This document shows, piece by piece, positions 7,247 to 64,000 of a stretch of 64,000 nt of DNA. Source of the DNA: Enterobacter mori LMG 25706 (GTDB taxonomy: Bacteria; Pseudomonadota; Gammaproteobacteria; Enterobacterales; Enterobacteriaceae); the NCBI RefSeq assembly GCF_000211415.1, contig NZ_GL890774.1, positions 289,019 to 353,018 on the forward strand. The letters run 5' to 3'. The notes beneath the pieces are model-generated. The model was not told where the DNA came from, did not search any database, and worked only from the letters and a program-made list of their open reading frames with translations. The first letter of the stretch is position 1; every line of letters begins with the position of its first letter. The translations under genes were made by a program, and so were the position numbers.

Positions 7247-8617
7247 TTACTTACGCACCACCACCAGCTTCTGGTTCACAAACTCTTTGATCCCCAGATC
7301 CGACAGCTCGCGACCGTAACCGGACCGCTTCACGCCGCCAAACGGCAGTTCTGCCGCGGTATCGGTGAGCCAGTTGATATACACCATCCCGGTCTCAATC
7401 CGCGACGCCATTTTCTTCGCACGCTCAATATCCTGGCTGAATACCGCGCCGCCCAGGCCGTAGTGCGAGTCGTTAGCCAGCGCAACCGCCTCGTCGTCGC
7501 TTTTCACGACGTACATCTGCGCTACCGGGCCGAAGAATTCTTCGAAGTACGCCGGGTTGTCGCGGGAGATATTCGTCAGGATCGTCGGTTCGAAGAAGCT
7601 CCCGTCACGCTGTACGGGCTTGCCACCATGGTGCAGCGTCGCGCCGTTTTTCACCGCCTCGTTAACCTGTTTGGTCAGCGTTTCGAGCGCGTCTTTAGAC
7701 GACAGCGGCCCCAGCGTGGTGGTTTCGTCCAGCGGATCGCCTATCTTCACCTGCTTAAACGCCTCGGTGAATTTGCTCAGGAACGTATCAGCAATCTTCT
7801 CGTGCAGGATAAAGCGCTTCGCCGCCGTACAAACCTGTCCGGCATTGTTGAGCCGCGCGTTAACGCCGATCTTCACGGCTTTATCAAGGTCGGCATCGTC
7901 CAGCACCACGAACACATCGTTACCGCCCAGTTCGAGCGTAGATTTCTTGATGTGCTTCGCCGCCTGCGCCGCTACAACGCTGCCCGCTTTTTCGGAACCG
8001 GTCAGCGCCGCCCCCTGCACGCGATCGTCGGCAATAATATGTGCCACCTGATCCGAAGAGATAAACAGGTTGGTCCATGTCCCTTCCGGCGCTCCCGCCT
8101 CGCGCACCAGGTGGGCAAAGGTTTCGGCGCAGTGCGGCACGATGCTGGCATGCTTGGCGATCACCGGGTTGCCCGCCGCCAGGTTTGGCGCCAGGACGCG
8201 CATCAGCTGGTAGTACGGGAAGTTCCACGGCTCAACGGCCATCAGCACGCCGATGGGGTGGTGCTCCACCCACGCTTCCCCGAGCTCAGAGTCGTACTTC
8301 ACTGGGGCAAGGAAACGCTTCGCGTTGTCGGCGTAGTAGCGAGCGATCTGCGCGCACAGCTTCATCTCGCCGCGACTCTGTTCGATGAGCTTACCCATCT
8401 CCTGGCTGGCGATTTTCGCCAGATCCTCCACGCGCGCGTCAATCAGGTCGGCAAGCTTATGCAGCACCGGCAGGCGCTGGCTGATGTCGCCTTTCGCCCA
8501 GTCCGAATGGTAAAGCGCATCGGCCGCCTTGAGCGCCGCTTCGATATCCGCATCGGTATGTGAGGGGTATTCTTTGATGAGCTGGTTAGTGGCAGGATTT
8601 ACTGTCTGATAGGCCAT
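7247..8617 (-). CDS. NAD(P)-dependent succinate-semialdehyde dehydrogenase family protein
   Basis: This 456-residue aldehyde dehydrogenase carries the family motifs: EPWNFPYYQL cofactor region, ALTGSEKAG turn, catalytic-glutamate motif LELGGND and the catalytic cysteine in NNAGQVCTAAKR. It resembles the Sad/GabD branch that oxidises succinate semialdehyde to succinate, although it is clearly distinct from E. coli YneI, so the exact aldehyde is uncertain. ATG at 8617 is preceded by AAGGAG; a longer reading from 8665 lacks support. It is divergent from an AraC regulator across a 152-bp gap, suggesting that regulator may control it. Confidence 0.85.
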   Translation of the reverse strand: MAYQTVNPATNQLIKEYPSHTDADIEAALKAADALYHSDWAKGDISQRLPVLHKLADLIDARVEDLAKIASQEMGKLIEQSRGEMKLCAQIARYYADNAKRFLAPVKYDSELGEAWVEHHPIGVLMAVEPWNFPYYQLMRVLAPNLAAGNPVIAKHASIVPHCAETFAHLVREAGAPEGTWTNLFISSDQVAHIIADDRVQGAALTGSEKAGSVVAAQAAKHIKKSTLELGGNDVFVVLDDADLDKAVKIGVNARLNNAGQVCTAAKRFILHEKIADTFLSKFTEAFKQVKIGDPLDETTTLGPLSSKDALETLTKQVNEAVKNGATLHHGGKPVQRDGSFFEPTILTNISRDNPAYFEEFFGPVAQMYVVKSDDEAVALANDSHYGLGGAVFSQDIERAKKMASRIETGMVYINWLTDTAAELPFGGVKRSGYGRELSDLGIKEFVNQKLVVVRK

Positions 8618-8769
8618 GTCGAATCTCCTTGTTTTACCGCTTAGGGTATTAAGGGTAGTCAACAATGACTGGCTGTGGGCGTAAAGTTGGGTATATCCGG
8701 AAGGTTCTTAATGAAGCGCTGCCAGAGGGTTCGCTGACGTGGTATAAAAAACCTTCAGAAGGAGCGCCC

Positions 8770-9513
8770 ATGACCGATACCCGACACGTCCGTCAGACTT
8801 TTCACCGCGCCTCAGGCCTTGAGCTGCGCAGCACCTGGCAGAGCACCCAGGCGTACAAACGCCATAGTCACCCTCAGCTTTCCATCGGCGCGATTGTGGA
8901 GGGCCAGACCTGCTGCGTATGTTACGACAGAGAGTACATCCTTCATCCCGGGGACGTCATCGTGATCCCGGCCTGTGCGCCGCACAGCTGCAACCCCGTC
9001 GCCGGGCAACCGCGCAGCTACCATATGCTCTATATCGACACAGAGCTTCCTTTGGCGCTACAGGTGATTCGTAGCCCTCACCTGTTTGCCCAGTACCTGG
9101 ACGTTGTCGAGACGCTGTCTTCAGCAGCCCTGGACATGCTGCTTTCTGCCCTTCCCCGCGGCACAGATAACGCAGAGGCGCCTCGTTCAACCAGCCAGCA
9201 GGTTCAGGCGGCATTCCTTTCCGACCTAGCTGCACCACCTTCGCTTGACGAGCTTGCTCAACGCTTTTCGCTGCGCAAGGAGACGCTGATTCGCATCTTC
9301 AAGCAGGACACCGGCCTGACGCCGGGCAGCTTCCTCAACATCTCCCGCGTGGAATACGCCAAAGCGCGGCTACGCGCCGGGGATGATATTGCCGACGTTG
9401 GCTACCAGAGCGGTTTTGCCGACCAGAGCCATTTTCATAAGACCTTCGTGAGCTATACCGCCGCCACGCCGCGCCAGTACGCCACGGGCCGATCAATATC
9501 AGACAATAAATAG
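8770..9513 (+). CDS. AraC-family transcriptional regulator
   Basis: The 247-residue protein has an N-terminal cupin-type sensor (HSHPQLSIGAIVEG; histidine-rich strand at about residues 25-40) and a C-terminal double helix-turn-helix (about residues 150-245, ending GFADQSHFHKTFVSYTAATPRQY). ATG at 8770 follows AGAAGGAGC. A LysE-type exporter starts 48 bp downstream on the same strand, a common pairing in which the AraC protein controls amino-acid export. The divergent dehydrogenase is another possible target. Confidence 0.85.
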   Translation: MTDTRHVRQTFHRASGLELRSTWQSTQAYKRHSHPQLSIGAIVEGQTCCVCYDREYILHPGDVIVIPACAPHSCNPVAGQPRSYHMLYIDTELPLALQVIRSPHLFAQYLDVVETLSSAALDMLLSALPRGTDNAEAPRSTSQQVQAAFLSDLAAPPSLDELAQRFSLRKETLIRIFKQDTGLTPGSFLNISRVEYAKARLRAGDDIADVGYQSGFADQSHFHKTFVSYTAATPRQYATGRSISDNK

Positions 9514-9560
9514 GTTCTGCAGCGCCGTACTCTGACCTCAGATTGTTAACTGAGGTCGCT

Positions 9561-10199
9561 ATGGAACTGTTATTCCCTTCCGCTTTTCTCGCCCTGGCGC
9601 TGGCGCACTTTGTTGCCCTGCTAAGCCCGGGCCCGGATTTCTTCCTGCTGGTAGGCTACGCCGCGCGCTATCGGGTGCGCGGCAGCGCTGGACTGTGCTT
9701 CGGCATCGCCGCAGGCAACGGGGTGTACATCCTGCTGGTGATTCTCGGCTGGAGCGCGCTGCGCCAGTTTACGTGGCTGTTTACGCTTATCGAGCTCTCC
9801 GGCGCGCTGTACCTGCTGTGGATCGGCTCGCATCTGGTGCGCAGCCGCCCGCAAGCGCTGGCGCTGAATGAAACCCATCAGCGCTTTCCCTCGCTGCGTA
9901 AGCAGATCCTGCTGGGGCTCGGCTCGGCGCTCCTTAATCCGAAGAATGCGCTGTTCTATCTGGCGCTGATGACGGCGCTGCTGGGGCCGGACATCACGCT
10001 GCTTCAGCAGGCGACCTGCGGCGTCTGGATGGTGATGGTGGTGCTGGTGTGGGATCTGGCGCTGGTGTCGCTGATGGGGCTGCCCGCGGTCCAGCAGAGG
10101 CTCAGCCGTTCGCTGTGGTGGATTGAGCGCACGGCAGGGGTGGTGCTGATGGGGTTTGGTGGGTGGGTGATGTGGCGGTTGCTGGAAATTATACGCTGA
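9561..10199 (+). CDS. LysE/RhtB-family amino acid exporter
   Basis: The 212-residue protein has about six transmembrane helices and the LysE/RhtB N-terminal signature SPGPDFFLLV (about residues 25-34), followed by GIAAGNGVYI. The family exports amino acids or their analogues by proton antiport. ATG at 9561 is preceded by TGAGGT; the TTG six codons upstream is less likely. It lies directly behind the AraC regulator. The substrate cannot be read from sequence. Confidence 0.85.
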   Translation: MELLFPSAFLALALAHFVALLSPGPDFFLLVGYAARYRVRGSAGLCFGIAAGNGVYILLVILGWSALRQFTWLFTLIELSGALYLLWIGSHLVRSRPQALALNETHQRFPSLRKQILLGLGSALLNPKNALFYLALMTALLGPDITLLQQATCGVWMVMVVLVWDLALVSLMGLPAVQQRLSRSLWWIERTAGVVLMGFGGWVMWRLLEIIR

Positions 10200-10229
10200 G
10201 ATAGCGGGCAGCCTGACGCCGCCCGTTGC

Positions 10230-10532
10230 TTATTTTTTGTTTTGATCGCGCAGCATTGCTTCACGCAAAATGGCATTGAGCCTCGTCTGGTAACCTTTTC
10301 CAGGCCGTTTAAGCCACTCCATCACGTCAGCGTCGATACGTACAGACGCCTGAGTTTTGAGTGGTCGATAGAACTTCCCTCGCACCGCCCCTGACCAGTG
10401 TTCATCATCCGTGGCAGGGATATCGCTGTAATCAATCTCTGCTTCCGATTTTTCGGCTAGTGCTTTGAGCTCAGCCTCCCGACGAGTACTAACCTCAGGC
10501 GCACTACCGCGTTTATGTTTAACCATGCTCAT
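10230..10532 (-). CDS. brnA: BrnA antitoxin
   Basis: The 100-residue protein has a flexible N-terminus and a C-terminal ribbon-helix-helix-like region (KTQASVRIDADVMEWLK followed by GYQTRLNAILREAM), matching BrnA, the DNA-binding antitoxin of BrnT. ATG at 10532 is preceded by GAGGAG and overlaps the end of brnT by 14 bp, the usual coupled order with toxin first. It should neutralise BrnT and repress the operon through the palindrome upstream of brnT. Confidence 0.9.
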   Translation of the reverse strand: MSMVKHKRGSAPEVSTRREAELKALAEKSEAEIDYSDIPATDDEHWSGAVRGKFYRPLKTQASVRIDADVMEWLKRPGKGYQTRLNAILREAMLRDQNKK

Positions 10533-50068: not shown

Positions 50069-50554
50069 TTACGCTCTTACGTTCCAATCGTCCGTATACT
50101 GGACATTACCATCAACATAACGCCAGGTGATTTTGTCATACATCAGGGAAACAGATTCCATGTGGTTGATCTGCGAGTTTCCTGCCATTTTAGCGTTTGG
50201 CATCCCTGGGTTAATGCCCGTCACTTTCACACCCTCAATGGTCATGACGAAGTAGCACTCTTCTTGTCCTGCATGGTTAATGCGATACCAGCGAATCTCC
50301 GCACTTTTCAACGTTTGACCGGTGGCAACGGCTTTGTATAGATACGGGCTGGAGCTATCAAACTCCTTTTCAATCATCATCGGAGAATGTGAACGCTTGC
50401 CAGTAATCTTCCCATTGGCACTGTCTACTGGAATGTTCAGACCATGACTAAAGCCAACAATCTCTATACTCCCCTCACGATCCTGAACGTCTACAGCTCC
50501 TTTAATGTCTGCGCCGCCATCGTCCTTAAGCCACATGTAAGCCGGAATAGGCAT
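50069..50554 (-). CDS. Hcp-family type VI secretion protein
   Basis: The 161-residue protein matches Hcp, the ring-forming inner-tube protein of type VI secretion (MPIPAYMWLKDDGGADIKG, IVGFSHGLNIPVD, then TVEGVKV-like central sheet MTIEGVKVTGINPG and IKWTYVDGN-like KITWRYVDGN near the end). ATG at 50554 follows AAGGAG. No other T6SS structural genes are in the window, so it is an orphan delivery module that would use a system encoded elsewhere. Confidence 0.92.
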   Translation of the reverse strand: MPIPAYMWLKDDGGADIKGAVDVQDREGSIEIVGFSHGLNIPVDSANGKITGKRSHSPMMIEKEFDSSSPYLYKAVATGQTLKSAEIRWYRINHAGQEECYFVMTIEGVKVTGINPGMPNAKMAGNSQINHMESVSLMYDKITWRYVDGNVQYTDDWNVRA

Positions 50555-50555
50555 T

Positions 50556-51074
50556 TTACAAACTCCTTTTAGTTGTGATTTTCTTCGTGATGAACCAGTA
50601 GCAAACAATCGTTAAGAGCATCTGAAAGCCCACAATCGCCGCCATTGTGAAATTTGAATACGTTTGATCTGGGAATAAAGACTGATAAGGCAGCAAGCGT
50701 AACAACGCCCAAAACAGGAAGGTAAACCCGAAGATTTTAGCTAACCGTCGCAATGTGGAACTGAACCACTCTCTGGGGATGCCTGCTGGACTAACTTTGT
50801 GTGTCGCGCCGCTGTACGCCGTGGTAATGGCACTCATGACAGGTACGCTGATTAAAGTATTGATTAAGATGCTAAAATAGCCGTCTAACGATTCCCAAAC
50901 TTCTAAATCAGGTTCACCCAAAATGAAGCGGGTAAACTTGTCGGCGCTCTGGAAATCAAAAAGCCCCGTAATAGAATTAACTAATCCATCATACGGAACC
51001 ATTTCAGCAACGATCAGCACAACAACAGCGAACAGCACTATCTTGATGAATAAACTAAGGGCATGTTTTGCCAT
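50556..51074 (-). CDS. Four-helix membrane protein, putative immunity to the Tlde1-like effector
   Basis: The 172-residue protein has about four transmembrane helices (residues about 8-26, 68-86, 110-128, 145-162) and lies between effector and hcp, overlapping the effector gene by 20 bp. Its place suggests an immunity protein, but its topology differs from the periplasmic immunity proteins known for Tlde1. This is inference. Confidence 0.6.
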   Translation of the reverse strand: MAKHALSLFIKIVLFAVVVLIVAEMVPYDGLVNSITGLFDFQSADKFTRFILGEPDLEVWESLDGYFSILINTLISVPVMSAITTAYSGATHKVSPAGIPREWFSSTLRRLAKIFGFTFLFWALLRLLPYQSLFPDQTYSNFTMAAIVGFQMLLTIVCYWFITKKITTKRSL

Positions 51075-51570
51075 TGGAGATCACCTCAATCGTGCCGTAT
51101 GCCTGTAGCTTCCTCATGCAAGGAACATCTATTCTCTGGCTTCTCAACAGAGCATTACGCAACATGGCAAAATCAGAATCATGTGGGAGAGTGATACAAC
51201 CTTCTGATAGTACGCCTGGATGCAAACGGAAATTGCCACGCTGAACGCTCTCAATCCATGTGTAATCGTCGATCCCCCAATCATCACGCCATAATGCGAA
51301 CCATTCAGAATGTTTGAATGTTGCACCATTGGCGAAGTGATTATAAATGTCTCTTCCCACTGTGTTTAGCTGTGACTTGAGTCCACCTTGAGGGCGGTCA
51401 ACAATCCAGTATTTACCCGCTGGTACAGGCCCCTCTTTGGGGATCATTCCACATGCCCCACGGTTACGGTAGGCACCATTACCAGAGAATGCTAAAAACG
51501 TGCCTATACCAGGAAACGATAACGGGGAGTAGTACGCATCATTAATTACGAACCTTCCATGTAGAGCCAT
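51055..51570 (-). CDS. Tlde1-like (DUF2778) type VI effector, L,D-transpeptidase fold
   Basis: The 171-residue protein carries the DUF2778/Tlde1 motif H117-x4-S122-x-G124-C125 (RLHPGVLSEGCITLP), the catalytic His and Cys of this L,D-transpeptidase/carboxypeptidase fold. Salmonella Tlde1 cuts and alters peptidoglycan tetrapeptides in rival cells. Here it is the first gene of the effector-membrane protein-Hcp unit. It has no signal peptide, as expected for an Hcp-delivered effector. Confidence 0.85.
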   Translation of the reverse strand: MALHGRFVINDAYYSPLSFPGIGTFLAFSGNGAYRNRGACGMIPKEGPVPAGKYWIVDRPQGGLKSQLNTVGRDIYNHFANGATFKHSEWFALWRDDWGIDDYTWIESVQRGNFRLHPGVLSEGCITLPHDSDFAMLRNALLRSQRIDVPCMRKLQAYGTIEVISNGKTCP

Positions 51571-53231: not shown

Positions 53232-54317
53232 ATGGCTAACTTCGATGCAGACTATTGCTACTCTTTCCCCGCTGTAAGGGGTGTCCAGGCTGGACGACCA
53301 TTTTACATTGCCACTTGCCCTATGCGCATCATCCCTAAGATCTTTAGCTTTGATGAGTCAGACGTACCACCTGAGCTGCGCGCTCAGCGTATTTTGAACA
53401 AATCGCGCATTCCCGAAATGGTTCGTTATTTGCTCGAAAACCCAAAAGATTATGTTTTCTCTGCATTGACGGCATCCATTGCGGTCGATGTACAGTTTGA
53501 CGAGTTCGAAAACTCGAACAATCTTGGTACGCTTCGCGTACCAATGGATGCTCAAATTCTTATCAATGACGGACAACATCGCCGTAAGGCTATCGAGGAT
53601 GCCCTTTCTGAGCGTCCTGAATTAGGACAGGACAACATCCCCGTATTGTTCTTTGTTGATGAAGGCTTAAGGCGTAGTCAGCAGATGTTTGCAGACCTGA
53701 ATAAATACGCCATCCGTCCCAGCCCATCACTATCCGCGCTTTATGATCATCGCGACGTAAGCTCAAACCTTGCACGCTATCTGGCCATGTCTATCGAGCC
53801 CTTTATTGGTCTTACTGAACTTGAGAAATCCAGTATCAGTTTGCTTTCCAATAAACTGTTCACGCTAAGCAGCATTAAACAGGCAACACGTGCCCTGCTT
53901 GGTAAAGACCCTAAAGTAGGTAGCGTTGAGGACAATACGCATATCGCTACGTTATACTGGCAGGCTATTTTCAAAGTCATGCCTGACTGGCAACTTGCTG
54001 CTCGCAAAGAAGTATCTCCAGCGCAGCTCCGCCAGGATTATGTGCATGCCCACGGTATCGGTTTGCAGGCTTTGGGTCTTCTGGGCCGTTCACTACTGGT
54101 TGAAGAACCTGAGCACTGGCAGGAAAAACTGACGAAGCTAAAAACCTTTGACTGGCGTAAAAGCAATCCCGAGATGATTAAGCGCGCAATGCAGCATGGC
54201 AAATTGAGCAAAACCGGCACCGCCATTCAGCTAACGTGCAACGCTTTAAAAATTGCGCTGTCTCTTCCCCTTTCTCCTGAAGAACAAGAGCTTGAAGCTC
54301 AGATGGTTGTATCATGA
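53232..54317 (+). CDS. dndB: DndB, phosphorothioation regulator (DGQHR family)
   Basis: The 361-residue protein has the DGQHR signature at residues 113-117 (ILINDGQHRRKAI), the defining motif of DndB. DndB represses dnd transcription and limits modification frequency; it is not needed for the chemistry. It is the first gene of the rightward operon; its end overlaps the dndC start as ATGA. Two TACG-N10-CGTA motifs lie upstream. Confidence 0.95.
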   Translation: MANFDADYCYSFPAVRGVQAGRPFYIATCPMRIIPKIFSFDESDVPPELRAQRILNKSRIPEMVRYLLENPKDYVFSALTASIAVDVQFDEFENSNNLGTLRVPMDAQILINDGQHRRKAIEDALSERPELGQDNIPVLFFVDEGLRRSQQMFADLNKYAIRPSPSLSALYDHRDVSSNLARYLAMSIEPFIGLTELEKSSISLLSNKLFTLSSIKQATRALLGKDPKVGSVEDNTHIATLYWQAIFKVMPDWQLAARKEVSPAQLRQDYVHAHGIGLQALGLLGRSLLVEEPEHWQEKLTKLKTFDWRKSNPEMIKRAMQHGKLSKTGTAIQLTCNALKIALSLPLSPEEQELEAQMVVS

Positions 54318-55948
54318 GTACATTAACTCAGGCCTATGATCTGGCCGACTATGAAGATTTCATAAACGAAGAGCAATTTGCTGGGCGTACTCTCGCTGAT
54401 TTTGTCTCTGAAGTTCAGCGCGTCTACTGCGCAGATAAACGCCCTTGGGTGATTGGCTACAGTGGCGGTAAAGACTCGTCAGCAGTCATTACTCTTGTTT
54501 ATCTGGCGTTGATGGGTCTTCCGCCGGAAATGCGTACGAAGGATGTGTTTGTTGTTTCCTCTGACACGCTCGTAGAGACGCCGGTTGTCGTAGATCTCAT
54601 CAAAAAAACGATGCTCCAGATTGAAGCTGGCGCTAAGCGCGACGGCTTACCGATCACACAACATGCTGTAACCCCAAAAACCAACGAGACATTCTGGGTA
54701 AATCTGCTTGGTAAAGGCTATCCAGCGCCTACCCGTAGTTTCCGCTGGTGTACAGAACGCATGAAAATCAACCCGGTAAGTGACTTTATCAAAGATAAAG
54801 TCAGCCAGTTTGATGAAGTGATAGTTGTCCTCGGCTCACGTAGTAGCGAGAGTGCCTCCCGTGCGCAAGTCATCGCAAAGCACAAAATTGATGGCTCGCG
54901 CCTGGCCCGGCATACCACGCTGGCAAATGCGTTTATCTATACCCCTATTGATACCTGGGATGTAGAAGACGTCTGGAAACTGCTGCGCGGCGCGTTCCGC
55001 TATGCTCCTGAGGATATCGACGAATGGGAAAGCCCGTGGGGTGGAAATAACCGTCCTCTGTGGACGCTGTATATGGACTCTTCCGCACAGGGTGAGTGTC
55101 CCCTGGTGATCGACGAAAGTACCCCTTCTTGTGGCAACTCTCGCTTTGGCTGCTGGACCTGTACCGTAGTAACCAAAGATAAAGCGATGGAAAGTCTGAT
55201 CAAAAATGGCGAAGAGTGGATGTCGCCATTGCTGAAATATCGTGATCTGCTGGCGTTTACCACCGATCCTGTGAATAAAGATACCTATCGCAACTATAAA
55301 CGCCGCACCGGTAAGGTGAGCTATCAGTACGCTAAAGACGGTGAAGATCGCAGTGCAGAGCGCAAGCATGTTCCTGGCCCCTACTGGCTTAAATACCGCC
55401 AGCAGTGGTTAAAAGACTTACTGGAAATTGAGCGTGATTTAAACGCCCAAGGCCACACGATTACGTTAATTACCCAGCCAGAGCTACACGCTATCCGCCA
55501 GGAGTGGTTAAAAGATCCTAATGAGCCAGACTGGCACGACACGTTGCCGGGTATTTACCGCGAGGTATATCAGCAGGATCTGAACTGGGTGGTTGACGAT
55601 CAATCGCGCTTTGATGCCAGCGATGCTGATTTGCTGATACAGATAACGCAAGGGTTTGACGTAGTACCTGAAATGGTAATGAAACTGATTGAGCTGGAAA
55701 CCTCGATGGAAGGGTTAAGTCGTCGTCAGGGTATTTTTGACAAGCTTGGCACAATTTTGAAGCAGGACTGGGGTAGCCTGGAAGAGATCCAGCAGCAACA
55801 GGCAACGCTGCAAAAACGCAACGATCGGGATATTCATCAGGACGAGGTGGATAAGCTAGAAGCTGAACTCCAGACTTTACAGCGCAGAATTATCGATGCA
55901 GGCGAATCGTCTGTGCTTATCGATGAGGAAAATGAACGTGCTCATTAA
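54314..55948 (+). CDS. dndC: DndC, PAPS-reductase-like sulfurtransferase ATPase
   Basis: The 544-residue protein has the ATP pyrophosphatase P-loop YSGGKDSSA (S50-S55) and four cysteines likely to hold a 4Fe-4S cluster (RWCTERM near 145, and CGNSRFGCWTC near 273-283). DndC activates the DNA backbone for sulfur insertion, with sulfur from a cysteine desulfurase (DndA or IscS). No dndA is visible nearby, so a chromosomal IscS probably serves. It overlaps dndD. Confidence 0.96.
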   Translation: MSTLTQAYDLADYEDFINEEQFAGRTLADFVSEVQRVYCADKRPWVIGYSGGKDSSAVITLVYLALMGLPPEMRTKDVFVVSSDTLVETPVVVDLIKKTMLQIEAGAKRDGLPITQHAVTPKTNETFWVNLLGKGYPAPTRSFRWCTERMKINPVSDFIKDKVSQFDEVIVVLGSRSSESASRAQVIAKHKIDGSRLARHTTLANAFIYTPIDTWDVEDVWKLLRGAFRYAPEDIDEWESPWGGNNRPLWTLYMDSSAQGECPLVIDESTPSCGNSRFGCWTCTVVTKDKAMESLIKNGEEWMSPLLKYRDLLAFTTDPVNKDTYRNYKRRTGKVSYQYAKDGEDRSAERKHVPGPYWLKYRQQWLKDLLEIERDLNAQGHTITLITQPELHAIRQEWLKDPNEPDWHDTLPGIYREVYQQDLNWVVDDQSRFDASDADLLIQITQGFDVVPEMVMKLIELETSMEGLSRRQGIFDKLGTILKQDWGSLEEIQQQQATLQKRNDRDIHQDEVDKLEAELQTLQRRIIDAGESSVLIDEENERAH

Positions 55949-57947
55949 GCAACTAGTATTACATAATTTTCGCGTATTTTGCGGCACTCACACTATCGAT
56001 CTGGCTCCCAGAAAGCGTCCGCATGAAGTAAACCCTCGCCCGATTGTTCTATTTGGTGGTTTAAATGGTGCAGGGAAAACATCTATTTTGTCGGCAATTC
56101 GACTGGCACTGTATGGGCGTTTAGCGTTTGGCTCGGCAATGCAGCAGCAGGAGTATGTTGAACAACTCGGAGCGCTGGTGCACAACGGGACGTATACAGC
56201 AGAGCGTCCTGATGAGGCCGCAGTAGAACTGACCTTTACCTACAACCAAAACGGCCATGAGACTGAATTCACCGTCACGCGTAGCTGGAAGAAAGGAAAG
56301 AAAGATCGTCTCTCTTTGCAGCAGGATGGACAACCGCGTAGTGAACTCAGTTATGACCAGTGCCAAGGGTTTTTGAATGAATTAATTCCTCACGGTGTTG
56401 CCGATCTTTTCTTTTTTGATGGAGAGAAGATAGCAGAGTTGGCGGAAGATGAATCCGGCAATATTCTGCGTACAGCGGTGCGTCGTTTGTTGGGACTGGA
56501 TCTGATCGCCAGACTGCAAAATGATCTGATGATTTTTGTCAAACGTCAGCAAACCGCGCAGTTGGGTGGCTCACAGCAACAGCAGGTCGAAGCGCTTGAG
56601 ACAAAGATTAAAACGCTCGCCAGTCAGGCAGAGAAATTGCTGGAAGAGGCCGATTTCGTCAACTCGCGGATTGAATTTTTATCCCAAGACATTATTCGCC
56701 ATGAGGGATTGTTAAATGCACAGGGCGGCGCATTTGCCCAGACCAAAGCACAGGAAAAACAGAAAGTTGAAACGCTGTTAAAAGAAAAAGAGCGTCTGGA
56801 AAAAGCGTTACGACAGGAATGCGATGGATCGTTGCCCTATGCCTTAGCGCCTAATATGTTGTCGCGGTTGCTGGAAAAAATTGCCAATGAAGCACAGATC
56901 AAGCAGGCGAGAATTTTTGAGACGGAATTAAATCAATTTTTAACGCAACTCAAAAATGATATCGCGTTCCGTTCCAGCAGCGAGAGTAGTACCAGAGCCA
57001 TTGCTACCGAAGCGATAACTAATAATTTGGACGCATATATGGCAGCCAAACCAAAAGGTGATTTGCTGTTTGATATTTCTGAACGTGAAGCCGGTATGCT
57101 CCAGCAATCAATTGAGCAGGACAGCACAAAAGCTTGGCAACGTTTTGATATGTACCGCCATCAATTAGCGGATATTGAACAACAACTGGAGCAGGCCGCT
57201 GCTAACATTGCTCGCGCCCCAGAAGACGAGCAGTTAATGGATCTCTTTGCAGCATTACGCGATCTCGATCATAAGCGTGAAAAACAGCGGCAAAAATATC
57301 GCTCGTTGCTGGAAGAGGCTAAACGGACGAAACAGCAGCAACTGGATTGTGTTCGTCAGGTACAGAAAGCACATGACATCACCCGTAGCCAACATGGTCT
57401 TAGCAGTGCGTTTAAAAATGCGCAGGAAACCATTAACCTGCTCGATTACTACAGCGATGTGTTAACGCAGGCGCGAGTGAAAAAGTTATCTACTAACTTT
57501 GAAATTGCCTACCACAAGCTGGCTCGTAAAGAGGATTTACAGCTTAATGCGCATATAAACCCACAGACATTTGATGTTGAACTGGTGGATGAAAAGGGTT
57601 CGGTGATTAATCGTAAGCTGCTCTCTGCGGGTGAAAAGCAGATTTATGCGATCGCTATTCTTGAGGCGCTGGCAAAAACCTCTGGGCGTGACTTCCCGGT
57701 GATTATTGATACTCCATTAGGACGTCTGGATTCTCAGCACCGGGATAAGTTGATTAATCATTATTTCCCAGAGGCCAGCCATCAGGTTGTTCTGCTATCC
57801 ACCGATACTGAAGTGGACGAGCGTTATTTCGTCGATCGACTGCGTGATGATATTTCTCATGCTTATGAGATTGTATTTAATGCGCATACCAAATCATCTG
57901 CACTGAAACCTGGCTATTTCTGGGAATTAACTAAGGAGGCGATCTGA
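55932..57947 (+). CDS. dndD: DndD, SMC-like ATPase
   Basis: The 671-residue protein has Walker A GGLNGAGKTS (about residues 42-51), a long coiled-coil middle (about 210-500), the ABC signature LSAGEKQIYAI near 563 and Walker B VIIDTPLGRLD near 590. It resembles SMC/Rad50-type ATPases and is thought to supply energy or open DNA for modification. ATG at 55932 lies within the end of dndC (17-bp overlap) and follows GAGGAAA. Confidence 0.95.
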   Translation: MNVLIKQLVLHNFRVFCGTHTIDLAPRKRPHEVNPRPIVLFGGLNGAGKTSILSAIRLALYGRLAFGSAMQQQEYVEQLGALVHNGTYTAERPDEAAVELTFTYNQNGHETEFTVTRSWKKGKKDRLSLQQDGQPRSELSYDQCQGFLNELIPHGVADLFFFDGEKIAELAEDESGNILRTAVRRLLGLDLIARLQNDLMIFVKRQQTAQLGGSQQQQVEALETKIKTLASQAEKLLEEADFVNSRIEFLSQDIIRHEGLLNAQGGAFAQTKAQEKQKVETLLKEKERLEKALRQECDGSLPYALAPNMLSRLLEKIANEAQIKQARIFETELNQFLTQLKNDIAFRSSSESSTRAIATEAITNNLDAYMAAKPKGDLLFDISEREAGMLQQSIEQDSTKAWQRFDMYRHQLADIEQQLEQAAANIARAPEDEQLMDLFAALRDLDHKREKQRQKYRSLLEEAKRTKQQQLDCVRQVQKAHDITRSQHGLSSAFKNAQETINLLDYYSDVLTQARVKKLSTNFEIAYHKLARKEDLQLNAHINPQTFDVELVDEKGSVINRKLLSAGEKQIYAIAILEALAKTSGRDFPVIIDTPLGRLDSQHRDKLINHYFPEASHQVVLLSTDTEVDERYFVDRLRDDISHAYEIVFNAHTKSSALKPGYFWELTKEAI

Positions 57948-58303
57948 TGCTCCCGAATCGAATGATGCTTAGTCGTCAGACTGAAGACCAGCTTAAAAAG
58001 CTAAAGGGATATACGGGAATTACACCCAATGTCGCGGCTCGACTGGCATTTTTCCGCTCGGTGGAGAGTGAGTTTCGCTATTCGCCTGAGCGCGATAGTA
58101 AGAAGCTGGATGGTTCGCTGGTATTGGATAAAATTACGTGGCTGGGGGAAACGCTGCAAGCTACAGAACTGGTGTTGAAGATGCTTTATCCTCAACTAGA
58201 ACACAAAGCGATGATTAAGGCGTGGGCGGCGCATGTCGAGGACGGAGTTGCGGCATTAAGGAACTATCGGAACTTAAATCAGTTTACAATGAATCTACTG
58301 TAA
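57947..58303 (+). CDS. dndE: DndE, nick-binding subunit
   Basis: The 118-residue protein starts with the GATGC overlap on the dndD stop and has the basic surface and helical pattern of DndE (RQTEDQLKKLKGYTGITPNVAARLAFFRS at about residues 10-40). DndE binds nicked DNA and completes the dndBCDE set. A convergent 12-bp stem terminator follows. Confidence 0.93.
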   Translation: MLPNRMMLSRQTEDQLKKLKGYTGITPNVAARLAFFRSVESEFRYSPERDSKKLDGSLVLDKITWLGETLQATELVLKMLYPQLEHKAMIKAWAAHVEDGVAALRNYRNLNQFTMNLL

Positions 58304-58372
58304 CCTTAAAGTGCTGAAAAGGAAGCAACCTCAAGGAAAGCGTAAGCCCTACTATTAAACATACAAATTACA

Positions 58373-58404
58373 GTGATAATCTCCGTTTATATGGAGATTA
58401 TCAC
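58373..58404. terminator. Convergent intrinsic terminator after dndE
   Basis: GTGATAATCTCC and GGAGATTATCAC form a perfect 12-bp stem around an 8-base loop, with AATAATTA flank. It separates dndE from the leftward operon. Confidence 0.8.
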
Positions 58405-58441
58405 AATAATTATGCATTATTAAATCAAATATTTTGGCATA

Positions 58442-59662
58442 TTACATCATTAATACCTTTTTATAATCTTCAAAATCTTTATGCTCGGAAAAAACCTCAA
58501 TTGATTTAAATCCAGTTTTAATAAGAATAATATTTTTAATTCTTGTCGCACCTATTCCCGACGCGGTAAAAAACACATCAGAGAAATCAACATCCAATAT
58601 AGATGAGACTCTATTTTTTAATTCTTTTAATTCAAAATCATTAGTAACAGATAAGTACTCTCTTAAAAAATCAAACTGGGCCTGGAAACCTACTGTCTTT
58701 AATAGATAGCTATTTTTACTCTGTTTAGTCCATACTGCAGAATCCATAATATCAAAAAACATAAAAATCACATTTTCAATAAACTCATCTTGTGATGAAA
58801 TATAAAATGGTCTGAGAGGTCTAGTTGTACCATTACTTACCAAGGCCTTTCGCCCATCTTTATTTTTATAATTTAATAGCTCATCTCGATCAAGTTTTGG
58901 ATTCCCTGTAATTAACTTCATTATACCATCGACAATTGTTGACAGTGATACCAACGGTCTACCTGTACTTTCTGTATCAATATCGCTGGGTGCGCCTAGA
59001 CGTATTTTATTCTCTAAAGGTTTCGAAAACTTATTTAACTTCCGAGTAATAAATACCGCTAACTTCTCAGGAGACCAAAGTTCCTTCGGTTCATCATCCA
59101 CTCGAAAACCAAAAAGATCATATGCTAAACTTTTGTCAACTTTCTTTTGATTTATATTAATTGTTGCAAATATATATGCTTGATATGGCGCCGGTAAATC
59201 TATGAATACCGAGCATAATAAATCCATACTCTTTCTTTCTGAAAACTCAAAGCCAGATAATCGATGTTGACCATCAATGATGGTAGCTATTTTTAACTCA
59301 TCAGATGGCATCACTAGAGTATAATGTCCATTTTCTTCCTCGACTCGCCAACGAATATTGGGATCCTCTATTAAGTTACCATTCTGGTCAAAATTTGCAC
59401 CTAATATGATTGAATTTGGAAAAGTAGACTCTACGCTATCAATATACTTACCAATTAATCTACTTCTTTTCTCATCTAACTCTCTTTGGTTTCCTTTCAT
59501 AAAAGAAAATAAACCATCTGACCCATTTTTTACACTATATTGTGCTCTTGAACTAAATGAAACCTTTGATAAAACTTCCGAGCTTATAGAAACGGCATAA
59601 AAAATACCAATGGGCTGCTCAATTTTAATTGCTGGCAATCTAATTTGGTTACTCAAAGTCAC
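58442..59662 (-). CDS. Second DGQHR-domain protein, dptH-linked
   Basis: The 406-residue protein has a DGQHR motif at residues 130-134 (ATIIDGQHRLSGFEF), like DndB but otherwise different in sequence and AT-rich. It overlaps the upstream membrane-protein gene by 14 bp, and that gene begins 3 bases after the dptH stop, so all three form one leftward operon. Being DndB-like, it may regulate or read modified DNA. Its function is unknown and it is not one of the standard dptFGH genes. Confidence 0.85.
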   Translation of the reverse strand: MTLSNQIRLPAIKIEQPIGIFYAVSISSEVLSKVSFSSRAQYSVKNGSDGLFSFMKGNQRELDEKRSRLIGKYIDSVESTFPNSIILGANFDQNGNLIEDPNIRWRVEEENGHYTLVMPSDELKIATIIDGQHRLSGFEFSERKSMDLLCSVFIDLPAPYQAYIFATININQKKVDKSLAYDLFGFRVDDEPKELWSPEKLAVFITRKLNKFSKPLENKIRLGAPSDIDTESTGRPLVSLSTIVDGIMKLITGNPKLDRDELLNYKNKDGRKALVSNGTTRPLRPFYISSQDEFIENVIFMFFDIMDSAVWTKQSKNSYLLKTVGFQAQFDFLREYLSVTNDFELKELKNRVSSILDVDFSDVFFTASGIGATRIKNIILIKTGFKSIEVFSEHKDFEDYKKVLMM

Positions 59663-60155
59663 CCCCTAACATCCCATTTGTACTTTCAGAATCATATCTC
59701 GACGAATTGACATGATGAATGAACCATAAAATTATCGTAGCCCCTAAGGAGATATTCACCCAATTTAGGAATAAAAATATGTTTCCACCATGACTTTTCA
59801 CTCCCTTAATATACGTCAAGACCAATACTATTGTAAGGCCTAAGACAATTAGCTTAGTAATTTCTGGCATTTTTCTATCATCAGAGTCAGACATAAAAAT
59901 CCTAGCCTCTAAAATGACGCATAAGGTTGCTATTCCGAAAGTCAATGCGTTTATTGGGTCAAAAAGAAGAGCATTATCAGATAATTCAAGAGCATAAGGG
60001 ACCCAAAGGCCCATGCTGCCGATAAAAAAGTAGAGAAATAATTCTCTCCAAAATTCAAATTTCTTGACGGCACGCTTGGCTCTAGCTTTGAAATTATAGC
60101 AATAAGACTCACTTGCAACAGTTACTTTATTTTGAGTATCCAAATCCCCTCCCAT
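59649..60155 (-). CDS. Four-helix membrane protein, dptH-linked
   Basis: The 168-residue protein has about four transmembrane helices (residues about 38-58, 66-86, 100-118, 128-150). ATG at 60155 is three bases after the dptH stop and the 3' end overlaps the DGQHR gene, implying translational coupling. It could be a membrane effector or anchor of the restriction arm. No family recognised. Confidence 0.7.
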   Translation of the reverse strand: MGGDLDTQNKVTVASESYCYNFKARAKRAVKKFEFWRELFLYFFIGSMGLWVPYALELSDNALLFDPINALTFGIATLCVILEARIFMSDSDDRKMPEITKLIVLGLTIVLVLTYIKGVKSHGGNIFLFLNWVNISLGATIILWFIHHVNSSRYDSESTNGMLGGDFE

Positions 60156-60158
60156 AAT

Positions 60159-63100
60159 TTAGACCAATTCCCAAAATGCTTTATCTCGCATTTTTTTAAC
60201 GTTCTTGTCCCCATCCACATACAAACTAAAATGCTTCTCAAGCTGTCGAATCTGACCCATCAAAGACTCCTGCTCACCTTTATCATCAACGTTAAATACC
60301 GCCTTGATATCCGCATTTCTAATTTCAGAAACACGGTGGATTACCCACGTTAAAATATAGGAGGCATAATTATTTTCTCCGGTCTTAAAGTGAGTGATCT
60401 CCTGCGTTGACAGGATCGCACCAACACCATACTCACGGCCTTCTTTAAGGATCTTACGCAGGCTGGAAAAATCCTGACGCATAAAGTTATCGGCTTCGTC
60501 CACCAGAATCATTTTGGTGAGCTGACGATAATCCCCCCGCACCACCGGTTTACCGCGCTTTTGCATCTGAGCGTAAAACAGATCCAGCGTAAGTGCGACT
60601 ACCAGGTTTTGTACTTCTGGCGGGTAACCAGCCAGTTCGATCACGGTGACGCCGTCAATCAATTCGTACAAGCTGGTCATCTTCTCCGGGATAGTCTCGA
60701 ATATCTTGTAACGCGCCAGTTTAGAAAGTGCTGCGTAAAGCGAATCTTCTTCAACCTTCTCCTGATCGAGGAAGCGCTGCCATACATCTTCAATCGTCGG
60801 CGCAGTTCTTGACCATGTTGTCGGATCTTCCGGCGAAATACCTGCCGCTTCGTAGCATTCTAAAATTAGATTTTCTAATTTGAGCTGCTGCTTATGTCCC
60901 AGCCCATAAGCTTTCGCCATCGTTTCCGATAGTCCACCTGCAGTATGGATTGGTAGCATTGGCGTATCGCCAAACAGTGATAAGGGGTTGTAAGGCAGTT
61001 TAAATAACTTGTACTTTTTGGCACCCGTTGCACCAAGAAAAGCCTCATCCACATAGTCTGATTTGTAGTCGAAGATCAGCAAACCAATAGGTTTGCCATC
61101 AACGTTACAAGACTGATTACGCATCAACTGTGTGACCAGCGATTTAGTAAACTGGGTTTTACCGGTGCCCATCGTTCCAATAATGCCGGTATTGGTATTC
61201 ATAAACTTCGCGGTGTTGGTTGGCTCCCAATGTAACGGGCTCTGACGCGCAGCATCATGACCAAACAGGATCTGTAATGGCGCATCGCTAATATCAGAAG
61301 TCGCCACCGGTACAGTAGGCTGTAACGACTCCGGTTCCGAAATGGGCCATGCAGTAGCCGGCGTTGTGACTTCTACCACGACTTTGGATTGTGACGGAGT
61401 GGCATCACTCTCTGGCTTAAGACGATATTTTTCCGGCACCCGATAACGTTCTGCCAGCGGTGGTTCATTCCCCTGCGCAGAAATTAGCGAAGGCAGCAGT
61501 GAATAAGGGATTTCAATCTGTAAGATATTATCCGCTGTCTCTTTATAGGAGAGATCGAAGCAGGTTGCGCTATCCACATGCGCCACGACGAAGCCGTCCG
61601 CATAGTCGGTCAACTCACCTAACTGATAGTCGCCCGTTAACCACCATTCGCGTCGATCCAGCAAGGGAGACAGTTTGTTGCTGTCCAGCACCCCGTACAG
61701 ACGTAGTTTCTCCACCTGCATCAACACCTGACGTATAAAGAGCGCCCGATACAGCTGTGATGCCAGCGTTTGTGGTTCCAGAATATCCTGCTGTAAATAA
61801 CGTTTCAGCTCACGAGCCTGTTGACCCGCATAGCTGTAGTCAGGTCGCGCCCCGGTTTTAACTTCCAGAGGCAACAGATAGAGGCGGTCTTCTTTGCATC
61901 CCACAAAGAGCACATCATCAGAGATCGCACCTTTACGATAACCCTGTAAATTTCTTGATAAATCACTCTCTTTCATTTTCAGCCCGACATTGCCGGACAC
62001 GCGGATCATTTCGGCTACTGATAACGGAATCCAGCAAATATCGGACTGATGCAACATAGATTGCACAAATTTGTACGCACCTATAATGCCATGCTTCTCT
62101 TTACGCTCTCTTTCACTGGAACGTAGCATTTTCAGCAGCCATTCACCGTTAAAGGCATTAAATTCAGCCAATAGATGCTGACTATCAACAGCAGGTTGCC
62201 CTGACTGGCTTCCGGTCTGGAGCAACCGCAGGAACAAATCAACCTGCTTCGTGACAGTGACGGCATCGTAGCCCGCGCAACTGGTGTACTGGTCAGAATA
62301 GTGGATAAGCACCACATCTTTCTGACTGGTAAAAAAGTCGAGGGTGACTTTAGGATCAATGATGGTGGTCCAGAGCGCGCTATTGTATGAGTAATTGAGT
62401 AGCTGTTTAAAATTGCCACTCACGGCCAGTCCGATCCCTTGTCCATGATACTGGCTGTTGCTTTGACGTGCGGGTTGCCACAGGCAGCCGATTAGTCGGG
62501 CAAGACGCAGGGCGCTGTAGGACTCAGTATCCACATCACGCAGTCCAAACGCGGTAAAGTAAGCATCCCCCTGCGTTTCGGCTCCTTCCCCAGCGATCAA
62601 CCCATGACACAATACCCCGCTAGACGCATCTTCAATGCGGATCTGGCGGCAATCCACAGGTGCTGTATTGGTGAAAAATGCCAGATGTGCATAGGACAGC
62701 TTGTCGCTTTCTGACGGCAGGACAAACTTGCTGAACGTTAACCTGCTACGCAGCAGGTCAATCAGCATATCAGCTCCCGCCCGCCATACGCCGCTGTTCA
62801 GATCGAGATCGTTTTTAAGCTGCTCATAGCTGCCACTTTCTGCAAAGTGATCGAACATATTGGGCAGCAAACGTTCATCGTAGCAGTTCACATGAACCGA
62901 AATAGCATGCTCTTTTTCTTGCTTAAAATATTCTACTAATCCCAGAAACAGTTCTTTGGCGTTCCCTTGATTAATGGCATTGATAATCAACGCACTGTTT
63001 TCAGCGCTCTGGAACAACCGGGCATAAGCGTCTGTGAACTCATTGAGTTTGTCTTTTACCAAACGTTTAACGTAGTCATGGCTGACCTGCCGCTGAGGAA

Positions 63101-64000
63101 CCGCATCAATCCAGAAGCGGTTTTCCTCCACCGGCTGTAGTTGCGCATATTCATGCTCACTGTGGTAAACAAACGGCATTAACCCGGAAACCATCAAGCG
63201 ATCAAGAGTGATCGGCGGTAGTGCGGCAAATGAAGCCGAATCGTTCTGTTCCGACTCCGCAACGATTGTTTCTGCCAGTTGTAGATGGTAGGCCAGCACT
63301 AATGGGTGCAGTGGTGAGAGACGCTCATGACTATCATTGCGGCAAATCCCCAGATGCAGCAGACGTTTCTCGTGCGCCGTCAGCGCTCTGCTCAGGCCAA
63401 TTTGCTGGAGTGACCGTTCAAACGTAGTAACAATGTAGCTGACCAGTGTGCGATATTCCGCTGACCACGACACCAGACTCGGTAGGGTGTTACGACGATG
63501 ATAGTAGGCAAATAACTGCTCATAGGCGTTATGGAGATCGGGGTAACTAGTAAGAAGTTCATCCAGCGCAAACTCACTATCGTCACTTCCCTTACCCAGC
63601 AGACGTTGTTCAATTAATGAGGCTTCCAGTATCAGCAACTGCTGGCGTACACCGACGACCTTGTGTTCAGTATTATCGAGTATGATGCGCCCTTTTAGAC
63701 GGTTCCAGGTTGCATTGCCCTCTTCTTTGAACAATTTATTGAAACGACTTTGGTCAAAAAGCAACGGCAACGTTAGCCCTTCTTCTGCTCCCGGCCCCTC
63801 GATATTAAACGACAGACGGGAATCACCGGAAACGAGCGCAAACTGAACCAGGTCACTTTTATTTGCCAGCGTCTCAAAATTCACATGAGCATAATGCTGG
63901 CAGTCGATATCTTCACTCTCGTCATCCAACGTACAGATCAAGTTGCCAGACTCGGCAATACGCAGAGTGTTATCTTCCAGTTGCAGGGTTATTTGGTCTT
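60159..64000 (-). CDS. dptH: DptH (DndH), HerA-type ATPase of phosphorothioate-dependent restriction (partial)
   Basis: The visible 1280 residues are the C-terminal part of DptH. The C-terminal third has HerA/FtsK-like ATPase motifs: Walker A GTMGTGKTQFTKSL (coded near 61170) and Walker B MILVDEADNF (near 60490), then a conserved E(I)THF-type sensor (STQEITHFKTGENN). The frame stays open to the window edge, so the N-terminus and dptG/dptF must lie further right. DptFGH degrade unmodified DNA. Here the operon continues past dptH into a membrane protein and a DGQHR gene. Confidence 0.9.
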   Translation of the reverse strand, partial: DQITLQLEDNTLRIAESGNLICTLDDESEDIDCQHYAHVNFETLANKSDLVQFALVSGDSRLSFNIEGPGAEEGLTLPLLFDQSRFNKLFKEEGNATWNRLKGRIILDNTEHKVVGVRQQLLILEASLIEQRLLGKGSDDSEFALDELLTSYPDLHNAYEQLFAYYHRRNTLPSLVSWSAEYRTLVSYIVTTFERSLQQIGLSRALTAHEKRLLHLGICRNDSHERLSPLHPLVLAYHLQLAETIVAESEQNDSASFAALPPITLDRLMVSGLMPFVYHSEHEYAQLQPVEENRFWIDAVPQRQVSHDYVKRLVKDKLNEFTDAYARLFQSAENSALIINAINQGNAKELFLGLVEYFKQEKEHAISVHVNCYDERLLPNMFDHFAESGSYEQLKNDLDLNSGVWRAGADMLIDLLRSRLTFSKFVLPSESDKLSYAHLAFFTNTAPVDCRQIRIEDASSGVLCHGLIAGEGAETQGDAYFTAFGLRDVDTESYSALRLARLIGCLWQPARQSNSQYHGQGIGLAVSGNFKQLLNYSYNSALWTTIIDPKVTLDFFTSQKDVVLIHYSDQYTSCAGYDAVTVTKQVDLFLRLLQTGSQSGQPAVDSQHLLAEFNAFNGEWLLKMLRSSERERKEKHGIIGAYKFVQSMLHQSDICWIPLSVAEMIRVSGNVGLKMKESDLSRNLQGYRKGAISDDVLFVGCKEDRLYLLPLEVKTGARPDYSYAGQQARELKRYLQQDILEPQTLASQLYRALFIRQVLMQVEKLRLYGVLDSNKLSPLLDRREWWLTGDYQLGELTDYADGFVVAHVDSATCFDLSYKETADNILQIEIPYSLLPSLISAQGNEPPLAERYRVPEKYRLKPESDATPSQSKVVVEVTTPATAWPISEPESLQPTVPVATSDISDAPLQILFGHDAARQSPLHWEPTNTAKFMNTNTGIIGTMGTGKTQFTKSLVTQLMRNQSCNVDGKPIGLLIFDYKSDYVDEAFLGATGAKKYKLFKLPYNPLSLFGDTPMLPIHTAGGLSETMAKAYGLGHKQQLKLENLILECYEAAGISPEDPTTWSRTAPTIEDVWQRFLDQEKVEEDSLYAALSKLARYKIFETIPEKMTSLYELIDGVTVIELAGYPPEVQNLVVALTLDLFYAQMQKRGKPVVRGDYRQLTKMILVDEADNFMRQDFSSLRKILKEGREYGVGAILSTQEITHFKTGENNYASYILTWVIHRVSEIRNADIKAVFNVDDKGEQESLMGQIRQLEKHFSLYVDGDKNVKKMRDKAFWELV

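Follow-up and report, generated by a model that had tools for sequence, protein, structure and literature searches.

Why does a DNA phosphorothioation (PT) locus carry a gene for a small membrane protein and a second DGQHR gene behind dptH? The question is raised by a 64,000-nucleotide stretch of Enterobacter mori LMG 25706 (contig NZ_GL890774.1), referred to here as the window, in which these two open reading frames (ORFs) lie between dptH and dndE. The original prediction had described a four-helix membrane protein and a 406-residue DGQHR protein, starting 3 bases behind the dptH stop, overlapping by 14 bp and facing dndE across a convergent terminator. Both ORFs are present in exactly this arrangement, and an inverted repeat that is terminator-like on the minus strand separates the two convergent gene ends (Table 1). 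The pair had further been proposed as an extra effector arm of the locus. We find that the membrane protein and the DGQHR protein are a conserved two-gene unit, both in dnd loci and elsewhere, that this unit accompanies two kinds of DNA-modification genes, and that in the window and in E. coli it occupies an exchangeable slot. We see roughly even chances that these two genes form a sensor-effector cassette added to the PT system, in which a DGQHR reader would act via a membrane effector.

A conserved pair of genes

The DGQHR protein of the window belongs to TIGR04172 (465.1 bits against a cut-off of 450, with residues 10-382 aligned to positions 2-379 of the 381 in the profile), and here this family member adjoins DNA phosphorothioation genes. 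In the pooled loci, 93 ORFs of at least 200 residues carry the motif DGQ[H/Q]R, and 41 of them exceed 200 bits against our own profile of the family (A1), which was built from 17 of the 41. An upstream ORF of 140-280 residues with at least three hydrophobic segments was found by script for 40 of these 41 members, and for all 41 when the annotated start in locus L039 is used, that locus having been missed solely through the choice of a longer start than the annotation's. The same kind of upstream ORF precedes none of the 52 other DGQ[H/Q]R ORFs, and only 5 of 655 background ORFs of at least 250 residues in the same loci. The original prediction had suggested looking for this pair next to dptH elsewhere, and other genomes do carry it there as a unit.

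The part of this count that is independent of profile building comprises 24 of the 41 members, namely 23 phage-contig members linked to N6-methyladenine (m6A) genes plus L064, all fetched by DGQHR-protein profiles alone (among the matches listed); kinship exists within it, with L093 90% identical to L032 and some phage contigs closely related. For the count, seven duplicate loci were removed by hand and short pieces were swapped for longer stretches where these were fetched. The weak matches L018-L021 and L023 were left unextended and uncounted, and L026, L036-L038 and L117-L127 stand outside the count; two of the latter, L119 and L120, also carry the pair. Locus L113 is cut by a contig end and has no ORF.

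Across 11 PT-linked pairs the gap between the two genes ranges from -20 to +10 bp. All 55 comparisons show lower conservation for the membrane protein (mean identity 26.3%) than for its DGQHR partner (43.5%). The paired type is rare in the genomes sampled.

Two modification chemistries and a split tree

Thirteen of the 41 family members lie by genes of the dnd system; dndC is within the stretch in 10 of them, and L027, L029 and L040 were counted as dnd-linked from dnd-associated restriction genes only. Another 27 lie by an adenine methyltransferase gene, 23 of these in phage contigs among the matches listed from a collection targeted on purpose. The remaining member, L064, has neither type of gene as recognised by tblastn with a panel drawn from the surveyed loci, which other modification genes can escape. 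In this sample the pair does not behave as common, unrelated genes found anywhere, an outcome that would have counted against the original prediction: 40 of the 41 members have a dnd-system or adenine-methyltransferase gene no more than 6 kb away.

Plasmid-derived pairs occur in both surroundings. They stand with dnd-associated restriction genes (L027, L029), with dndBCDE (L028) or with dndCD and an FtsK gene (L030), and also with an adenine methylase or MT-A70 methyltransferase plus a BglII-family nuclease (L031, L034) or with a Dam-type methylase (L032). The L064 pair lies among what we take to be tail-type genes of P2-like look. In G1356, a genome of the window's bacterial family, a 202-residue four-helix ORF precedes a DGQHR protein that shares 98% identity with the L064 one; Dam-family matches lie elsewhere in that genome, the nearest about 15 kb from the pair. 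The other match of the same search, G1191, is a dnd-linked pair. In hosts that have a Dam of their own the module's methyltransferase may be left out, as in L064 and G1356.

The DGQHR tree is split by chemistry. In a midpoint-rooted tree of 51 rows that carries a long-branch warning, the 12 PT-linked paired proteins form one clade and the 25 m6A-linked ones its sister, with supports of 98/98 and 100/98. There is one label change within each clade, and L064 sits in the m6A clade. Six DndB proteins and seven long Dam-linked DGQHR proteins fall into separate clades, the latter called the 'nuclease-fused' group after its one scanned member (L044). Modification sensing would predict just such a reader lineage, one that tracks the kind of mark its neighbours make.

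The seven long proteins (759-799 residues; L044, L054, L055, L067, L068, L072 and L083) have a long N-terminal region and stand beside Dam-type methyltransferases. In L044, the sole long member scanned, this region is weakly NERD/HSDR_N-like, below the Pfam cut-offs; these proteins are possibly single-protein restriction partners of Dam and may represent an effector swap. DGQHR proteins of 496-524 residues (L074, L084-L088) lie at most 6 kb from adenine methyltransferase matches and have no membrane partner. A further arrangement in phage contigs (L073, L076, L078, L081, L082, L090 and L091) consists of a 285-300-residue ORF directly upstream of a 342-353-residue DGQHR protein, with no modification gene nearby recognised by the panel.

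An exchangeable slot between dptH and dndE

The alignment of the window with E. coli STEC719 (L036), which covered positions 57001-62000, gives 92-93% identity over 57001-58277 and 60166-62000 and no alignment between them. In place of the pair, L036 holds a gene for an Mrr-type nuclease together with a hypothetical gene. Two further E. coli loci, L037 and L038, hold two different cassettes of DUF262 plus an ATP-dependent nuclease (by annotation in L037, by annotation and Pfam in L038), and in E. coli KE55 the slot is empty, with 284 bp from dndE to dptH. In E. coli and in the window, the slot between dptH and dndE is thus exchangeable, holding the pair in some loci and nucleases or nothing in others.

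The E. coli genomes show how frequent these alternatives are. dndC is present in 204 of 5426 genomes. The L035-type membrane-DGQHR pair was matched in 123 genomes, in 109 of them over at least 80% in one place; the L037-type cassette was matched in 31, the L038 type in 12 (B7A included), the Mrr cassette in 9, the L039 type in 1, and the window type also in 1 (ET490, 95.4% over the entire query). The six cassette queries add up to 177 genomes if no overlap is assumed, as they were separate queries (one in distant mode, one in distant window mode, four in near mode) with overlap unchecked, against the 204 dndC-positive genomes. The statement that standard loci contain dptF, dptG and dptH only therefore does not hold in E. 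coli. Two of the 27 dndC-positive genomes left over were inspected (L126, L127). One more membrane-DGQHR pair is found in Ecol_316, and E. coli has at least four types of the pair, with identities of 18-29% between the membrane proteins and 36-42% between the DGQHR proteins.

It had been proposed from base composition that the pair was inserted later than its neighbours. The two genes are indeed AT-rich, with G+C contents of 36.7% and 32.6% against 48.4% for the part of dptH in the window and 47.7% for dndBCD, and the slot is exchangeable. However, all eight cassettes measured, in the window and in E. coli and with the nuclease cassettes included, have a G+C content of 31-37%. Low G+C therefore marks the slot and does not date the pair, and we dropped the idea of a recent AT-rich insertion of the pair alone.

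The two proteins

The AlphaFold2 model of the DGQHR protein reaches a predicted local distance difference test (pLDDT) score of 79.8. Its closest structural matches are PadC, ParB, Noc and KorB, followed by sulfiredoxin, and its N-terminal domain models as a nucleoside triphosphatase (NTPase)-like domain of ParB/sulfiredoxin (Srx) fold. Residues Q59-R60, DGQHR 130-134, F165 and N169 are invariant in 17 rows of the family; they match the motifs QR, DGQQR and FxxxN described for the ParB/Srx fold of SspE, GmrSD and BrxU, which are DUF262-DUF1524 restriction enzymes (PMC4619093). No HNH or DUF1524 nuclease domain is among the Pfam or NCBIfam matches of the window protein at E<=1, and nothing matches it among PDB sequences at the same threshold. 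A tblastn search of 50,697 phage records with the window protein gave nothing at E<=1e-5, and one with a Dam-linked DGQHR protein gave two partial matches, both in Acinetobacter phage MD-2021a. A single-protein scan of genome contigs yielded one relative, from Agitococcus.

The protein had been called DndB-like, which is correct insofar as it has the DGQHR domain (TIGR03187) in common with DndB. It is, however, a member of a separate catalogued family in a clade apart from DndB, its score against PF14072 (23.9) is below the Pfam cut-off of 29.1, and TIGR03233 (DndB) is not among its NCBIfam matches at E<=1. Unlike the TIGR04172-type proteins, the DndB rows surveyed have no upstream membrane ORF.

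In the 168-residue membrane protein, hydrophobic segments start at residues 38, 70, 98 and 126; three are called under stricter thresholds and four under a looser one. The AlphaFold2 model places helices at 6-31, 33-57, 67-88, 97-120 and 126-151. We found no family for it at E<=0.05 in Pfam, NCBIfam, PADLOC or PHROGs, nothing at E<=0.01 in plasmids (tblastn) and nothing informative by Foldseek with its model, and a profile comparison of two sets of membrane proteins did not establish homology. PHROGs gave one match for each of the two window proteins (E 0.088 and 0.12), which we regard as chance. An AgrB-like protease was considered from the name 'accessory gene regulator B family' in some records of the L035-type membrane protein and was set aside, the Pfam AgrB score of that protein being 22.7 against a cut-off of 23. 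Hydropathy, the AlphaFold2 model and gene order agree on a membrane protein of several helices encoded together with a putative sensor, as in membrane-effector abortive infection modules.

A putative reader with a proposed membrane effector

In DndI and SspE, a ParB-like domain senses PT, its arginine drives NTP hydrolysis, and PT recognition is coupled to a nuclease (PMC11662687, PMC13251355). In Salmonella Cerro 87 the dndI gene (DUF262 + HNH) adjoins dndBCDE and shares a transcript with dndFGH, and DndI, which has a ParB-superfamily domain with a DGQQR motif, is described as restricting PT-deficient DNA (PMC11662687). Its placement by dnd genes is like that of the window pair. The effector differs: DndI has a fused HNH nickase, whereas the window has a separate membrane protein and a DGQHR protein in which no nuclease domain was found among the matches given above. 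The proposal of an extra effector arm is consistent with DUF262 plus nuclease, or Mrr, occupying this slot in other E. coli, and with dndI, which is such an arm. Locus L042 may have both kinds of gene on one contig: beside a dnd locus and a membrane-DGQHR pair, it carries a 604-residue DGQQR protein (8543-10357) that would then be DndI/SspE-like.

We propose that the DGQHR NTPase would check DNA for whichever modification is made locally, much as DndI and SspE detect PT through their related DUF262 domains. The self mark would be provided by the dnd genes and, in the wider family, by a methyltransferase of Dam or MT-A70 type. Unmarked invading DNA, or a mismatch between marked host and unmarked invader, would trigger a nucleotide-state switch in the DGQHR protein, and the switched protein would cause its membrane partner to disturb the inner membrane or to block infection there. 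Mark sensing is suggested by the association of DGQHR genes with modification genes; contact between the two proteins and an effector role of the membrane protein are likewise inferred. The membrane protein would stand where DndI and SspE have their nuclease, as indicated by the cassette swap in one slot and, more weakly, by the seven long Dam-linked DGQHR proteins.

In its widest form the proposal is a nuclease-free counterpart of restriction-modification, with PT or m6A as self mark, a DGQHR reader and a fast-diverging membrane effector of about four helices, taking the form of a mobile cassette in dnd loci and of a methyltransferase-membrane-DGQHR module of three genes in phage contigs; we hold this generalisation tentatively, at somewhat less than an even chance. 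As in type II restriction-modification, a methyltransferase stands beside companion genes, and a BglII-family nuclease is also present in four m6A loci. Unlike in type II systems, the other m6A loci keep a membrane protein and an NTPase-like protein, with a nuclease search there that was not exhaustive: a Pfam scan of ten proteins around five m6A loci (one of them the L104 methyltransferase) gave no nuclease and left two without a family.

Two considerations weigh against a modification-sensing cassette. Whole-locus inheritance would give a similar tree. In addition, the commonest E. coli cassette type is often damaged, with the membrane gene affected too in 2 of the 12 listed rows, which implies that it is dispensable there. 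In W5-6 (L026, 11442-12602) the DGQHR gene has an in-frame stop, verified against L035, and the membrane ORF is open; annotation of the remaining E. coli rows gives the DGQHR gene in pieces in L121, L123, L124 and L125, an IS66-type insertion in L123 and no intact membrane gene in L124.

The alternative that survives best is that the membrane protein anchors the DGQHR NTPase at the inner membrane as a tethered inspector of incoming DNA, so that DNA entry or replication is blocked (superinfection exclusion, Noc-like tethering) and no killing takes place. The 23 of 27 m6A-linked members in viral contigs, among matches from the targeted collection, would suit such a role, as would Noc among the best structural matches, being described as a ParB-like protein with CTP-controlled membrane binding (PMC12704722). 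The nuclease cassettes in the same slot point instead to a destructive effector, and we consider pure tethering unlikely, at about one chance in four.

It is more doubtful still that the pair is a regulator, in which the DGQHR protein, as a repressor like DndB or as a sensor of NTP, would tune expression of dnd/dpt or methyltransferase genes, with the membrane protein relaying a signal. For Salmonella, DndB, itself a protein with the DGQHR motif, is reported to be a regulator of PT modification (PMC4507180), but the paired proteins have a clade of their own in the tree and co-occur with DndB in the same loci. Nucleases replace the cassette while the flanks keep 92-93% identity, and among E. 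coli dnd loci there are some whose DGQHR gene is stopped or whose slot is empty.

A toxin-antitoxin addiction module, in which the DGQHR protein restrains a constitutive membrane toxin, would also have this form: one small protein in the membrane, a larger one in the cytosol, and genes that overlap or abut. We put a simple system of this kind aside as highly improbable, given the open membrane ORF beside the stopped DGQHR gene of W5-6 and, by annotation, several similar rows, although these are readings of sequence. That combination would speak against a membrane toxin that acts unrestrained and is in line with a reader-dependent partner. Least credible of all is that these are hitch-hiking island genes with no relation to modification, for although the slot does exchange its content, 40 of 41 family members keep within 6 kb of modification genes across different taxa and two chemistries.

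Relation to earlier descriptions

TIGR04172 (DNA phosphorothioation-associated DGQHR protein 1) is itself known. It was built in 2011 with ProPhylo from a Serratia protein whose GI number, 270263649, is flanked numerically by those of DptH and DptE (PMC3226654, Table 2), and its seven homologues were termed the DPT satellite family; the relevant passages of that paper give no function, membrane partner or m6A-linked sister clade. A 2024 survey of dnd neighbourhoods (PMC10853773) discusses nucleases as the linked effectors, the word 'membrane' appearing once in the sections concerned, for phages with internal membranes. A full-text search of the open PMC literature did not bring up the DGQHR-membrane pair in titles or abstract openings, and in the portions of that literature searched we found no description of the membrane partner, the slot comparison or the m6A sister modules.

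The pair is not ordinary baggage: it combines a reader-like protein of a known family with an unnamed membrane partner and occurs with two DNA-modification chemistries. It would be categorically new only if a nuclease-free effector were proven. If the sensor-effector reading is true, DNA-modification immunity can work without a nuclease, with the type of reader domain that feeds HNH in DndI and SspE driving a membrane protein, and the DGQHR lineage has moved between sulfur and methyl marks. It would also explain the role of the TIGR04172 satellites and of the DGQHR genes that neighbour Dam in phage sequences. A comparison in one genetic background would become possible, between versions of one dnd locus that have a nuclease cassette, a membrane cassette or none.

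Features of the window and its surroundings

Table 1. Positions of the pair, the slot and the dnd/dpt genes in the window.
Feature	Position	Strand	Description and basis
Membrane-protein gene	59649..60155	-	ORF, 168 residues, ATG start; four-helix, predicted N-in/C-in (hydropathy, loop charge, AlphaFold2)
DGQHR gene	58442..59662	-	ORF, 406 residues, GTG start; TIGR04172
DGQHR protein architecture			Predicted ParB/sulfiredoxin-fold NTPase-like domain at about residues 14-174 plus helical C-terminal region (AlphaFold2)
Inverted repeat between convergent dndE and DGQHR genes	58366..58411	.	19-nt arms, 89% complementary; terminator-like on minus strand
Exchangeable cassette slot, 3' end of dndE to 3' end of dptH	58278..60165	.	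Alignment of window with L036
dptH (dndH), 3' part, continues outside window	60159..63998	-	NCBIfam
dndE	57947..58303	+	TIGR03184, 80.5 bits, cut-off 71.85
dndD	55896..57947	+	TIGR03185
dndC	54314..55948	+	TIGR03183
dndB	53232..54317	+	TIGR03233

The complete dptH ORF encodes 1699 residues (L003) and is 97% identical to DptH of E. coli ET490; beyond the window, dptH, dptG and dptF have 91-97% identity to their ET490 counterparts, and a tRNA-Leu (CAA) lies about 2.4 kb past dptF (L004). Upstream of the dnd genes, positions 50069-51570 hold a cluster that by eye resembles a type VI secretion Hcp protein with an adjacent effector set. In one phage contig, a reverse-transcriptase-like ORF (RVT_1; L096, 12244-13002) lies about 3 kb downstream of a membrane-DGQHR-Dam module.
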